This document shows, in pieces, positions 9,976 through 38,166 of a DNA stretch of 64,000 nt (position 1 is the first letter of the stretch; every line of letters starts with the position of its first letter). The stretch spans positions 3,038,001 to 3,102,000 of the forward strand of contig NZ_CP102332.1 in assembly GCF_024600715.1 (NCBI RefSeq). The letters are read 5' to 3'. The stretch comes from Streptomyces changanensis. GTDB taxonomy: Bacteria; Actinomycetota; Actinomycetes; Streptomycetales; Streptomycetaceae. The position numbers were made by a program, and so were the translations under genes. The notes below the pieces were generated by a model, which did no database searches, was not told the origin of the DNA, and saw nothing but the letters and a program-made list of their open reading frames with translations.

Positions 9976-10254
9976 TCAGCAACCGCCCGCGACCGCCGGA
10001 ATGATCGAGACGCCCGCGCCGTCGGGGGTCGACGTGGCGAGCCCGCCCTCGAAGCGGACGTCGTCGTCGTTGACGTAGACGTTCACGAAGCGGCGCAGCT
10101 GCCCCTGGTCGTCGAGGACGCGCGCGGCGATGCCCGGGTGGTTCTTCTCCAGGGACTCGATGACCTCGGCGAGGGTGGCCCCCTCGGCCTCGACCTCGGA
10201 CCGGCCGTCCGTGTACGTGCGGAGGATGGTGGGGATGCGGACGTTGACGCTCAT
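9976..10254 (-). CDS. MoaD/ThiS-family ubiquitin-like sulfur carrier
   Basis: This 92-residue beta-grasp protein starts MSVNVRIPTIL and ends PAVAGGC. Family members are adenylated and loaded with sulfur on a C-terminal Gly-Gly. Here one Cys follows the Gly-Gly, so the tail would need trimming before it can work, as known for carriers matured by a JAMM-type protease. It lies 19 bp after thrC on the same strand and shares its terminator, so it is probably expressed from the same SAM-riboswitch transcript. The likely role is delivery of sulfur for cysteine or another sulfur metabolite, in the manner of CysO. A molybdopterin role cannot be excluded. Confidence 0.9.
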   Translation of the reverse strand: MSVNVRIPTILRTYTDGRSEVEAEGATLAEVIESLEKNHPGIAARVLDDQGQLRRFVNVYVNDDDVRFEGGLATSTPDGAGVSIIPAVAGGC

Positions 10255-10273: not shown

Positions 10274-11566
10274 TCAGTGGGCGAGGCCGGCGTCCCGGAA
10301 CGCGTCCAGGCTCGGGCGGATGGTCGCGGTGGGACCGGTCGTCGGGGCGACCGCGTCCAGGGTCTTGAGGCCGTCGCCGGTGTTGAGGACGACGGTGGTG
10401 AGGGTCGGGTCGAGGAGGCCCTGCTCGACGAGCTTGCGCGTCACGCCCACCGTCACGCCGCCCGCCGTCTCGGCGAAGATGCCCTCGGTGCGGGCCAGCA
10501 GCTTGATCGCGTCGACGACCTGCGCGTCGTCCACGTCCTCCACCGCGCCGCCGGTGCGGCGGGCGATGTCGAGGACGTACGGTCCGTCCGCCGGGTTGCC
10601 GATGGCGAGCGACTTGGCGATCGTGTTCGGCTTCTGCGGGCGCACGACGTCGTGGCCGGCCTTGAAGGCGGCCGACACCGGGGAGCAGCCCTCCGCCTGG
10701 GCGCCGAAGATCCTGTACGGCCTGTCCTCGACCAGGCCCAGCCGGATCAGTTCCTGCAGCCCCTTGTCGATCTTCGTCAGCTGCGAGCCGGACGCGATCG
10801 GGATCACCAGCTGGTCGGGGAGCCGCCACCCGAGCTGCTCGCAGATCTCGTACGCGAGGGTCTTGGAGCCCTCGGCGTAGTACGGGCGGAGGTTGACGTT
10901 GACGAAGCCCCAGCCCTCGCCGAGCGGGTCGCCGATGAGCTCCGAGCAGAAGCGGTTGACGTCGTCGTACGTGCCCTCGATGCCGACGAGGTCGCCGCCG
11001 TAGACCGCGGCCATGACGACCTTGCCCTGCTCCAGGTCGTGCGGGATGAACACGCACGAGCGGAAGCCGGCGCGGGCGGCGGCGGCGCCCACCGCGCCCG
11101 CGAGGTTGCCGGTGGAGGAGCAGGACAGGGTGGTGAAGCCGAAGGCGCGGGCGGCCTCCAGGGCCTGGGCGACCACGCGGTCCTTGAAGGAGTGGGTCGG
11201 GTTCCCGGAGTCGTCCTTGACGAACAGCCTGCCCGGCGCGACGCCCAGCTCGCGGGCGAGGTTGTCGGCCCGCACGAGGGGCGTCCAGCCGGGGTTCAGG
11301 TTGGGCTTGTCGGCGACGTCGGCCGGGACGGGCAGGAGGGGGGCGTAGCGCCAGATGTTGGCCGGGCCGGCCTCGATCCGCTTGCGCAGCTCCTCCGGGT
11401 CGCCGGCCGGGAGGTCGTAGGCCACTTCGAGGGGGCCGAAACAGAACTCGCAGGCGAAGATCGGGCCGAGCGCGAAGCGCTCACCGCATTCGCGACAGGA
11501 GAGTCCGGCGGCGGGGCCGAGGTCGACGGAGGTGGCGCTGGTGGGTGCGGTGGTCTGCACAGCCAT
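10274..11566 (-). CDS. thrC: Threonine synthase
   Basis: This 430-residue PLP enzyme converts O-phosphohomoserine to threonine. The N-terminus carries two CxxC pairs (Cys24/27 and Cys39/42), a zinc-ribbon-like cap seen in one branch of the family. The PLP lysine lies in NPTHSFKDRV, and a glycine-rich phosphate loop (SCSSTGNLAGAVG) follows. The start is an ATG 20 nt downstream of a SAM-I riboswitch. The ribosome site is not strong (AAAGGG about 12 nt upstream), so access to it may be what the riboswitch controls. It is followed by the sulfur-carrier gene. Confidence 0.97.
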   Translation of the reverse strand: MAVQTTAPTSATSVDLGPAAGLSCRECGERFALGPIFACEFCFGPLEVAYDLPAGDPEELRKRIEAGPANIWRYAPLLPVPADVADKPNLNPGWTPLVRADNLARELGVAPGRLFVKDDSGNPTHSFKDRVVAQALEAARAFGFTTLSCSSTGNLAGAVGAAAARAGFRSCVFIPHDLEQGKVVMAAVYGGDLVGIEGTYDDVNRFCSELIGDPLGEGWGFVNVNLRPYYAEGSKTLAYEICEQLGWRLPDQLVIPIASGSQLTKIDKGLQELIRLGLVEDRPYRIFGAQAEGCSPVSAAFKAGHDVVRPQKPNTIAKSLAIGNPADGPYVLDIARRTGGAVEDVDDAQVVDAIKLLARTEGIFAETAGGVTVGVTRKLVEQGLLDPTLTTVVLNTGDGLKTLDAVAPTTGPTATIRPSLDAFRDAGLAH

Positions 11567-11586
11567 GGGAGGCGAGGCCCTTTCTC

Positions 11587-11732
11587 CTCATCTTTCTCAC
11601 TGGCGTCTTTCGCCGTGAGACGGATTTGGCACCTTCCCTAGCCGGGGACCTCGCGGGCACGTGCGCGTGCGAGACCGACTGGAGGGTTGCCGGGGCTTCA
11701 TCGGGCCGTTTCCCTCTGCCCCTCTGGATGAG
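11587..11732 (-). promoter_or_regulatory. SAM-I (S-box) riboswitch
   Basis: The minus-strand leader of thrC shows the S-box core in order: P1 strand CTCATC, AGAGGGGCAGAGGGA, GGCCCGATGAAGCCCCGGCAACC, AGGTGCCAAATCC, a P4 hairpin with loop GAAA, and the closing P1 strand GATGAG. All strongly conserved S-box blocks are present. The element ends 20 nt before the thrC start. I see no terminator stem and U tract between it and the ATG. The 3' strand of P1 runs straight into GAGAAAGGG, the only purine-rich stretch upstream of the start, so control of translation is the likelier mode. Confidence 0.96.
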
Positions 11733-11881
11733 CGGTATGTGGTTGTCGGCGCGGGACCCCGGCATGCGGGCGTCTCACGCGTTGTTCAAGACTGTAACCG
11801 AAGGGGTGGGTGTCCGAGAGGGGCGTCCGACCTACGAGATGGATCACCTGCGGTTGTGGGACGACCCGAGGAGAGGCGCGC

Positions 11882-12838
11882 GTGCTGGAAGAGGTGGAGC
11901 GCTGGCTGGAGCGGCGGTCCTGGTCCGTGGCCGACCGGCCCGTGGACCGGCTGCTCGCCGCCAAGCGGGCCCGCGGCACGACGGTGAGCGTCGTCCTGCC
12001 CGCGCTGGACGAGGAGGCGACGGTCGGCGAGATCGTCACCGTGATCCGGCGGGAGCTGATGTCGGAAGCGGTGCCGCTCGTCGACGAGCTCGTCGTCCTC
12101 GACTCCGGCTCGACCGACCGCACGGCCGAGGTCGCCGCGGCGGCCGGCGCGCGCGTGGTGGCGCGGGACGACGTGCTGCCGCGGATACCCGCCGTCCCGG
12201 GCAAGGGCGAGGTGCTGTGGCGCTCCCTGCTGGTGACCGGCGGGGACGTGGTGTGCTTCGTCGACGCCGACCTGCGTGAGTTCCGCGCGGACTTCGTGAC
12301 GGGCATCGTGGGGCCGCTGCTGACCGACCCGGACGTCGAGTTCGTGAAGGCCACGTACGACCGGCCGCTCGGCTCCGGACCCGCCGCCGGGCAGGGCGGA
12401 CGGGTGACGGAGCTGGTCGCGCGGCCGCTGCTGAACCTGCACTGGCCGCAGCTGGCCGGGTTCGTCCAGCCGCTCGGCGGGGAGTACGCGGCCCGTCGCT
12501 CGCTGCTGGAGCGGCTGCCCTTCCCGGTGGGGTACGGCGTGGAACTGGCGCTGCTGGTGGACGCGCTGCACCTGGTGGGGCTGGACGCGCTGGCGCAGGT
12601 CGACGTGGGCGTGCGCCTCCACCGCCACCAGGACGACCGGGCGCTGGGGCGGATGGCCGCGGCGATCTACCGCACGGCCCAGCTGCGGCTGTCGCGCGGG
12701 CACCTGGTGCGGCCGCGGCTGACGCAGTTCGAGCGCACCGAGGCGGGGTTCGCGCCGCGTACCCACCCGGTGGACACGGAGGAGCGCCCGCCGATGGTCG
12801 AGGTGGCGGAGTACGTGCGGAAGCGCCGGGTGGCCTGA
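11882..12838 (+). CDS. gpgS: Glucosyl-3-phosphoglycerate synthase
   Basis: The product is 318 residues from a GTG preceded by GAGGAGAGG. It is a GT-A fold glycosyltransferase with VVLPALDEEATVGE near the N-terminus, LDSGSTDRT, and a metal-binding VDADL in place of DxD. GpgS transfers glucose from a nucleotide sugar to 3-phosphoglycerate, the first step to glucosylglycerate, a compatible solute, and in mycobacteria to methylglucose lipopolysaccharide. Its neighbour is otsA, so the locus groups two solute pathways that share sugar nucleotides. Upstream in-frame codons back to 11810 lack a ribosome site and are not counted. Confidence 0.93.
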   Translation: MLEEVERWLERRSWSVADRPVDRLLAAKRARGTTVSVVLPALDEEATVGEIVTVIRRELMSEAVPLVDELVVLDSGSTDRTAEVAAAAGARVVARDDVLPRIPAVPGKGEVLWRSLLVTGGDVVCFVDADLREFRADFVTGIVGPLLTDPDVEFVKATYDRPLGSGPAAGQGGRVTELVARPLLNLHWPQLAGFVQPLGGEYAARRSLLERLPFPVGYGVELALLVDALHLVGLDALAQVDVGVRLHRHQDDRALGRMAAAIYRTAQLRLSRGHLVRPRLTQFERTEAGFAPRTHPVDTEERPPMVEVAEYVRKRRVA

Positions 12839-37908: not shown

Positions 37909-37985
37909 TGGAGCCGCCTGTCGGAATCGAACCGACGACCTCAAGATTACAAGTCAAGCGCTCTGGCCAACTGAGCTAAGGCGGC
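37909..37985 (-). tRNA. tRNA-Thr (anticodon UGU)
   Basis: This is a 77-nt gene with an encoded CCA end. The acceptor stem GCCGCCT/AGGCGGC is fully paired, D stem GCTC/GAGC, T arm GTCGG TTCGATT CCGAC, anticodon loop CTTGTAA giving UGU. It reads ACA/ACG threonine codons. The anticodon stem as written (CTTGA with TCTTG) has two U-U mismatches in its middle. Confidence 0.95.
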
Positions 37986-38103: not shown

Positions 38104-38166
38104 GCCCCCATCCTTCCTTTACTCGGATCGTCCGGCACGTTCCTGCCGGTGAAGGGACCCATCACC

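Follow-up and report, generated by a model that had tools for sequence, protein, structure and literature searches.

A SAM-I riboswitch in front of a predicted metM-metO operon in Streptomyces changanensis

Described operons and gene content of the locus

The arrangement of a SAM riboswitch in front of this two-gene operon is already published for S. lividans (PMC8079986) and S. albulus (PMC12172450), as far as the excerpted texts of both reports go. In S. lividans TK24, RF00162 lies upstream of SLIV_16930-SLIV_16925, which is filed under threonine biosynthesis (PMC8079986, Table 3, excerpted text). The same excerpt gives 21 of 22 S. lividans elements as transcribed with an upstream start site, and five of six ydaO leaders, so that the lone exception is probably a ydaO leader and the SAM element is probably among those validated. 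In S. albulus, metM has a SAM riboswitch upstream, metO is mentioned as the counterpart of a putative sulfur carrier, and MetM is described as the homocysteine synthase of Streptomyces, crediting Hasebe et al. 2024, whose title, as cited, names an O-phospho-L-homoserine route (PMC12172450, excerpted text). SCO4293 and SCO4294 of S. coelicolor were grouped with sulfate assimilation genes by profile (PMC2267785), and ArgR binding was reported upstream of SCO4293, which falls into one expression type with the cysteine desulfurase SCO2146 (PMC3293853), both according to excerpted text. No metM-metO operon was found in the excerpted texts of PMC13257386, PMC12452182, and PMC3766115. The CysO-CysM-Mec system of cysteine synthesis likewise joins a MoaD-like carrier to a PLP enzyme, but its product is cysteine and not homocysteine.

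We analysed a stretch of 64,000 nucleotides of the S. changanensis genome (NZ_CP102332.1, positions 3,038,001–3,102,000; hereafter the window), in which a SAM-I aptamer precedes two genes on the reverse strand. The first, annotated thrC and here called metM (10274..11566), encodes a predicted PLP-dependent homocysteine synthase of the threonine synthase family (430 aa). The second, metO (9976..10254), starts 19 nt past the metM stop codon and encodes a sulfur carrier of the ThiS/MoaD fold (PF02597; 92 aa, C-terminus ...AVAGGC), as anticipated by the original prediction of a moaD-like second cistron. The closest solved structures to its product are 3dwg_C (E 3.4e-28), deposited as 9.5 kDa culture filtrate antigen cfp10A, and 4n6e_B (E 3.9e-28) of the ThiS/MoaD family. 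A MetO-sized frame was obtained for 79 of 80 relatives and none for the remaining one. Of these 79, 55 end in GG, 21 in GGC, and three are probably wrong frames; the window MetO ends in GGC, and its extra C-terminal cysteine may need trimming. The single Prok-JAB protease match in the genome adjoins another ThiS-like gene and not metM-metO; protease, ThiS-like protein, and a PLP enzyme form a cluster (C1:2430832-2432212) whose genes we take to be mec, cysO, and cysM.

We consider it probable (roughly 0.85) that the riboswitch acts as an OFF switch for metM-metO and provides end-product feedback on methionine synthesis. MetM would presumably take O-phosphohomoserine from the threonine branch and the sulfur of thiocarboxylated MetO to form homocysteine, the precursor of methionine and SAM.

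Aptamer and expression platform

The SAM-I (S-box) aptamer (11585..11734, reverse strand) matches RF00162 over all 108 model positions (1-108) with 75.1 bits (E 8.8e-16), above the Rfam gathering score of 44.4 bits. The S-box core is complete, as originally predicted; the predicted extent of 11587-11732 had placed the aptamer correctly but fell 2 nt short at each end, and the aptamer does lie just upstream of the threonine-synthase-like gene, with a gap of 18 nt, not 20 nt, to the ATG at 11566. With 150 of 341 first-look candidates scored in the 6.9 Mb genome, RF00162 was reported at this site alone, and no second S-box was reported. P1 is formed by CUCAUC (5' strand, 11727..11732) and GAUGAG (3' strand, 11587..11592), the latter overlapping an SD-like AGGAG (11584-11588) and conserved throughout a set of 81 leaders (that of the window and those of 80 named loci, of which 79 carry a Streptomyces title). 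We compared P1 in 27 aptamers, namely that of the window and 26 that precede metM in other members of the phylum. Pair 4 is standard in 26 of them and occurs as six pair types, a covariation confined to the inner P1; pairs 5-8 hardly vary and are standard in 26-27, and the outer pairs 1-3 are poor (standard in 10, 13, and 19). At the level of sequence, the pairing is deeply conserved.

With its complete aptamer, an inner P1 kept among relatives, and a position before a methionine-pathway gene, the element resembles the SAM-I class, but it lacks an intrinsic terminator, and the 3' strand of its P1 runs into or up to SD-like sequence. Intrinsic terminators are a common, though not a defining, expression platform of SAM-I riboswitches. 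The putative platform (11574..11589, reverse strand) comprises GAGG (11586-11589), an SD-like AGAAAGG (11579-11585), and CCUC (11574-11577), a possible pairing partner of GAGG that would compete with P1. Its sequence GATGAGGAGAAAGGGCCTC is exact in 73 of the 81 leaders, shortened within the loop in seven, and altered by one substitution in one. In folding of these leaders, P1 and GAGG:CCUC were mutually exclusive, the mean predicted GAGG:CCUC probability being 0.00 with P1 enforced and 0.47 with P1 forbidden. The contrast was weak for the unpaired probability of the SD region (0.64 with P1 enforced, 0.79 with P1 forbidden), that of the AUG was unchanged by the P1 state (0.55 vs 0.52), and ligand-free ensembles with and without P1 lay less than 1 kcal/mol apart. 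The distance to the ATG is 17 nt from the end of AGGAG and 12 nt from that of AGAAAGG, in either case more than is usual. A pairing of CUCGCC with the GGCGA(G) of P4, picked out by eye as a candidate anti-anti-SD, was dropped, because four leaders (L045, L065, L088, L092) change it without evident compensation.

Plentiful SAM would stabilise P1, the 3' strand of which overlaps AGGAG and abuts AGAAAGG, so that 30S loading on metM would be hindered and metO output would drop along with that of metM. At low SAM, P1 would open, GAGG would be free to pair with CCUC, and AGAAAGG would come to lie in a loop accessible to ribosomes. We found no terminator-like site at window positions 11500-11890 and no terminator-like hairpin in any of the 81 Streptomyces-type leaders, as the original prediction had it; its proposal of translational control therefore gains support, and SAM-dependent blocking of translation appears the likeliest mechanism for the Streptomyces metM leader.

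Control of the same operon by the same ligand through premature transcription termination, for instance by Rho, is the strongest of the alternatives, albeit an unlikely one. It draws on the leaders of other actinobacterial families, of which we compared 26 (those of the 57 phylum pairs that lie outside Streptomyces and whose loci hold both parts; 16 labelled families): eight have a terminator-like hairpin between aptamer and metM (weak in L134), in seven, which have no terminator, the SD begins within or at the P1 3' strand, and 11 have neither; in two loci (L147, L177) no start codon with an SD was found. Against termination in Streptomyces stand the terminator-free window and leaders and the little room that is left, as the aptamer 3' end lies 15-18 nt ahead of the ATG in all 81. 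The same aptamer is thus joined to two or more kinds of platform, and for Streptomyces a translational one is the simplest reading.

Further upstream, a candidate -10 element TACAGT (11791..11796, reverse strand) lies within a block (~11779-11800) whose columns are at least 90% conserved in the 81 leaders, and it fits the S. lividans TAnnnT consensus (PMC8079986, excerpted text). Transcription is predicted to start near 11785; a sigma-70 consensus scan gave no match. A glucosyl-3-phosphoglycerate synthase gene diverges from ~11882 (forward strand). Elsewhere, the window contains an msiK RNA motif (38106-38164, forward strand; 52 bits) with a tRNA gene nearby (37912-37985, reverse strand).

Distribution of the arrangement

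All 121 sampled Streptomyces genomes, that of the window included, have exactly one metM match at E 1e-100 or better, and within this sample the other matches are 79-93% identical to the window protein. The original prediction had proposed a survey of thrC leaders in Streptomyces; RF00162 was found directly upstream of metM on the same strand in 119 of these genomes, with no more than 129 nt between it and the matched part, so that the arrangement is not due to chance. In both remaining genomes (G073, G001), metM lies at the first bases of a contig. Three further Streptomyces RF00162 matches lie elsewhere, above the cutoff in G098 and G103 and below it in G109. The former two, L203 (4389-4530, reverse strand) and L204 (1717-1858, forward strand), precede by 198 and 189 nt genes of IclR-type regulators with best NCBIfam matches to BhcR and PcaR/PcaU, below cutoff, which in our view resemble NdgR. 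The below-cutoff S-box (L205, 9920636-9920718; 29.5 bits) precedes an NtaA/DmoA-type FMN monooxygenase gene.

In a sample of 246 Actinomycetota genomes searched at E 1e-60 or better, we obtained 98 metM rows from 97 genomes. One gene (G245) contributes two fragments to these rows, and two weak matches (G153, G294; 33-34% identity) are unlikely to be MetM. At least 57 of the 98 rows, from 21 labelled families, have RF00162 on the same strand no more than 1.5 kb upstream. Among the matches listed, none of the 20 rows from families f15 and f17 has an S-box, and six of these loci searched against all of Rfam gave no relevant match above gathering. An Rfam scan of ten metM loci without a listed S-box recovered one T-box, one S-box (L187, counted among the S-box-less rows), and one below-gathering cspA-like match, and nothing relevant at the remaining loci. 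The T-box (L188, 1149-1447, forward strand; 102.9 bits) immediately precedes metM; the S-box listed for that genome is found elsewhere, before a MetK-like gene (L158). In the Rfam-consensus register its specifier is AUG, which supports a methionine role of metM within the limits of an uncalibrated register. The nucleotide after the specifier is C and the T-box bulge is UGGU. A purine usually follows a T-box specifier, so the C speaks against the AUG register, and a UGGU bulge would fit discriminator A. For S-boxes away from metM, we read the downstream frames of 15 of the 93 listed, plus eight special loci; judged by eye from the N-termini, the genes behind the 15 are presumably MetK (n = 9), MetH (n = 3), MetX (n = 2), and one unrecognised.

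A SAM-IV riboswitch (L202; C1:1663098-1663215, reverse strand; 106.7 bits) lies elsewhere in the genome, 113 nt ahead of its longest downstream frame, which encodes a SufS-like cysteine desulfurase. We read 11 SAM-IV loci. By eye, a desulfurase-like protein follows in each of four other Streptomyces loci and also in G204, G128, and G348 (L195, L196, L200), and SAM-IV is present in all eight Streptomyces of the sample. The pair of SAM-IV and cysteine desulfurase is also listed for S. lividans (PMC8079986, excerpted text). No metM match at E 1e-60 was obtained in G204, G128, and G348, which weakens the link and leaves a dedicated SAM-IV/metM relay hypothetical. We tentatively suggest, at clearly less than even odds, that SAM-IV on the desulfurase (persulfide supply) and SAM-I on MetM-MetO (homocysteine) guard both ends of such a relay in Streptomyces, and that metM leaders of Actinomycetota come in at least three designs: an S-box followed by a terminator, an S-box whose P1 occludes the SD, and a tRNA-Met T-box. 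Among the publications listed in literature searches, we found none joining SAM-IV and SAM-I into one relay; both elements are listed in the excerpted text of PMC8079986.

Homocysteine or threonine as the product

The window enzyme scores 265.7 bits against TIGR00260, the NCBIfam threonine synthase equivalog model (cutoff 167.1), so that a pipeline using this model will call it a threonine synthase; it also matches PALP (PF00291). It is neither the sole nor the pathway-clustered ThrC of its genome: a hom-thrC-thrB cluster (homoserine dehydrogenase, threonine synthase, and homoserine kinase; L003) lies at C1:4616.6-4620.2 kb, apart from this threonine-synthase-family enzyme with its neighbouring ThiS/MoaD carrier. 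The genome search (150 of 341 first-look candidates scored) gave no RF00162 match at the hom-thrC-thrB location. The window enzyme shares 36% identity with the ThrC encoded there, and 20 of the 29 phylum proteins (three of the 20 from Streptomyces) reach 54-90% identity to the window protein and only 34-42% to this ThrC. A CxxC-n-CxxC motif occurs within the first 60 residues of all 30 MetM-type proteins (29 from the phylum plus the window) and is absent from the first 60 residues of this genome's ThrC. The PLP-lysine pattern NPTxSFKDR is matched by 26 of the 30 (unmatched in four) and is followed by V in 25 and P in one, at a position that is G in this genome's ThrC and in four aligned solved ThrCs. 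A second PLP-site pattern was considered for marking MetM but dropped, as just 15 of the 30 proteins matched it. A third threonine-synthase-like gene (L004; C1:134788-135801, reverse strand) lies near the contig end and is 31% identical to MetM and 34% to ThrC.

The window pair looks like MetM-MetO, a homocysteine synthase with its sulfur carrier. MetM reportedly uses O-phosphohomoserine with thiocarboxylated MetO. We take the window pair to correspond to SCO4293-4294 of S. coelicolor, which fits the annotated product. As in S. albulus (PMC12172450, excerpted text), a threonine-synthase-like enzyme, an adjacent sulfur carrier, and an upstream SAM riboswitch come together, but the window MetO extends one residue beyond GG and the activity of the window MetM is predicted from sequence. 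With S. lividans, a member of the same genus, the window shares RF00162 before a two-gene operon, which is labelled threonine biosynthesis there (PMC8079986, excerpted text) and here is assigned to homocysteine synthesis. MetM may not be the only route to it: adjacent genes for a MetZ-like O-succinylhomoserine sulfhydrylase and a MetA-like acyltransferase (C1:1968072-1970151, forward strand) constitute a possible second homocysteine route, and the claim that MetM is the sole one was dropped for this reason. In a check for missing acylhomoserine routes, matches to MetX in the genome were only short and partial (at most 26.3 bits), and the model cutoff was reached in no control genome either.

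Two readings would give the enzyme a part in threonine synthesis. A bifunctional MetM, forming homocysteine with MetO-thiocarboxylate and otherwise some threonine or 2-oxobutanoate, so that the switch trims both branches, seems quite improbable: a Microcystis relative did make threonine from O-phosphohomoserine and deaminate threonine in vitro, but it is distant (51.6% to S. albulus MetM) and has no riboswitch (PMC12172450, excerpted text). The reading of the original prediction, in which a genuine threonine synthase has its output linked to SAM through the riboswitch, we regard as highly improbable, because the NCBIfam score and the S. lividans filing (PMC8079986) are set against the separate hom-thrC-thrB cluster, the sulfur carrier as operon partner, the relative under a T-box reading AUG, the profile that SCO4293-4294 share with sulfate assimilation genes (PMC2267785), and the description of MetM as a homocysteine synthase (PMC12172450), the papers being cited from excerpted text.

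Since the pair matches MetM-MetO, the switch would guard methionine synthesis, a classic S-box target. The original prediction of a departure from usual S-box targets gives way to SAM feedback on MetM, which is standard methionine regulation, and the apparent oddity of SAM controlling threonine is replaced by ordinary methionine feedback. The riboswitch thereby serves as a clue to function, as the leader RNA points away from the threonine assignment on which the NCBIfam model and the annotation of S. lividans agree. Judging from the phylum survey, other genes named thrC that combine a CxxC-n-CxxC N-terminus with an S-box appear to be metM under a wrong name.
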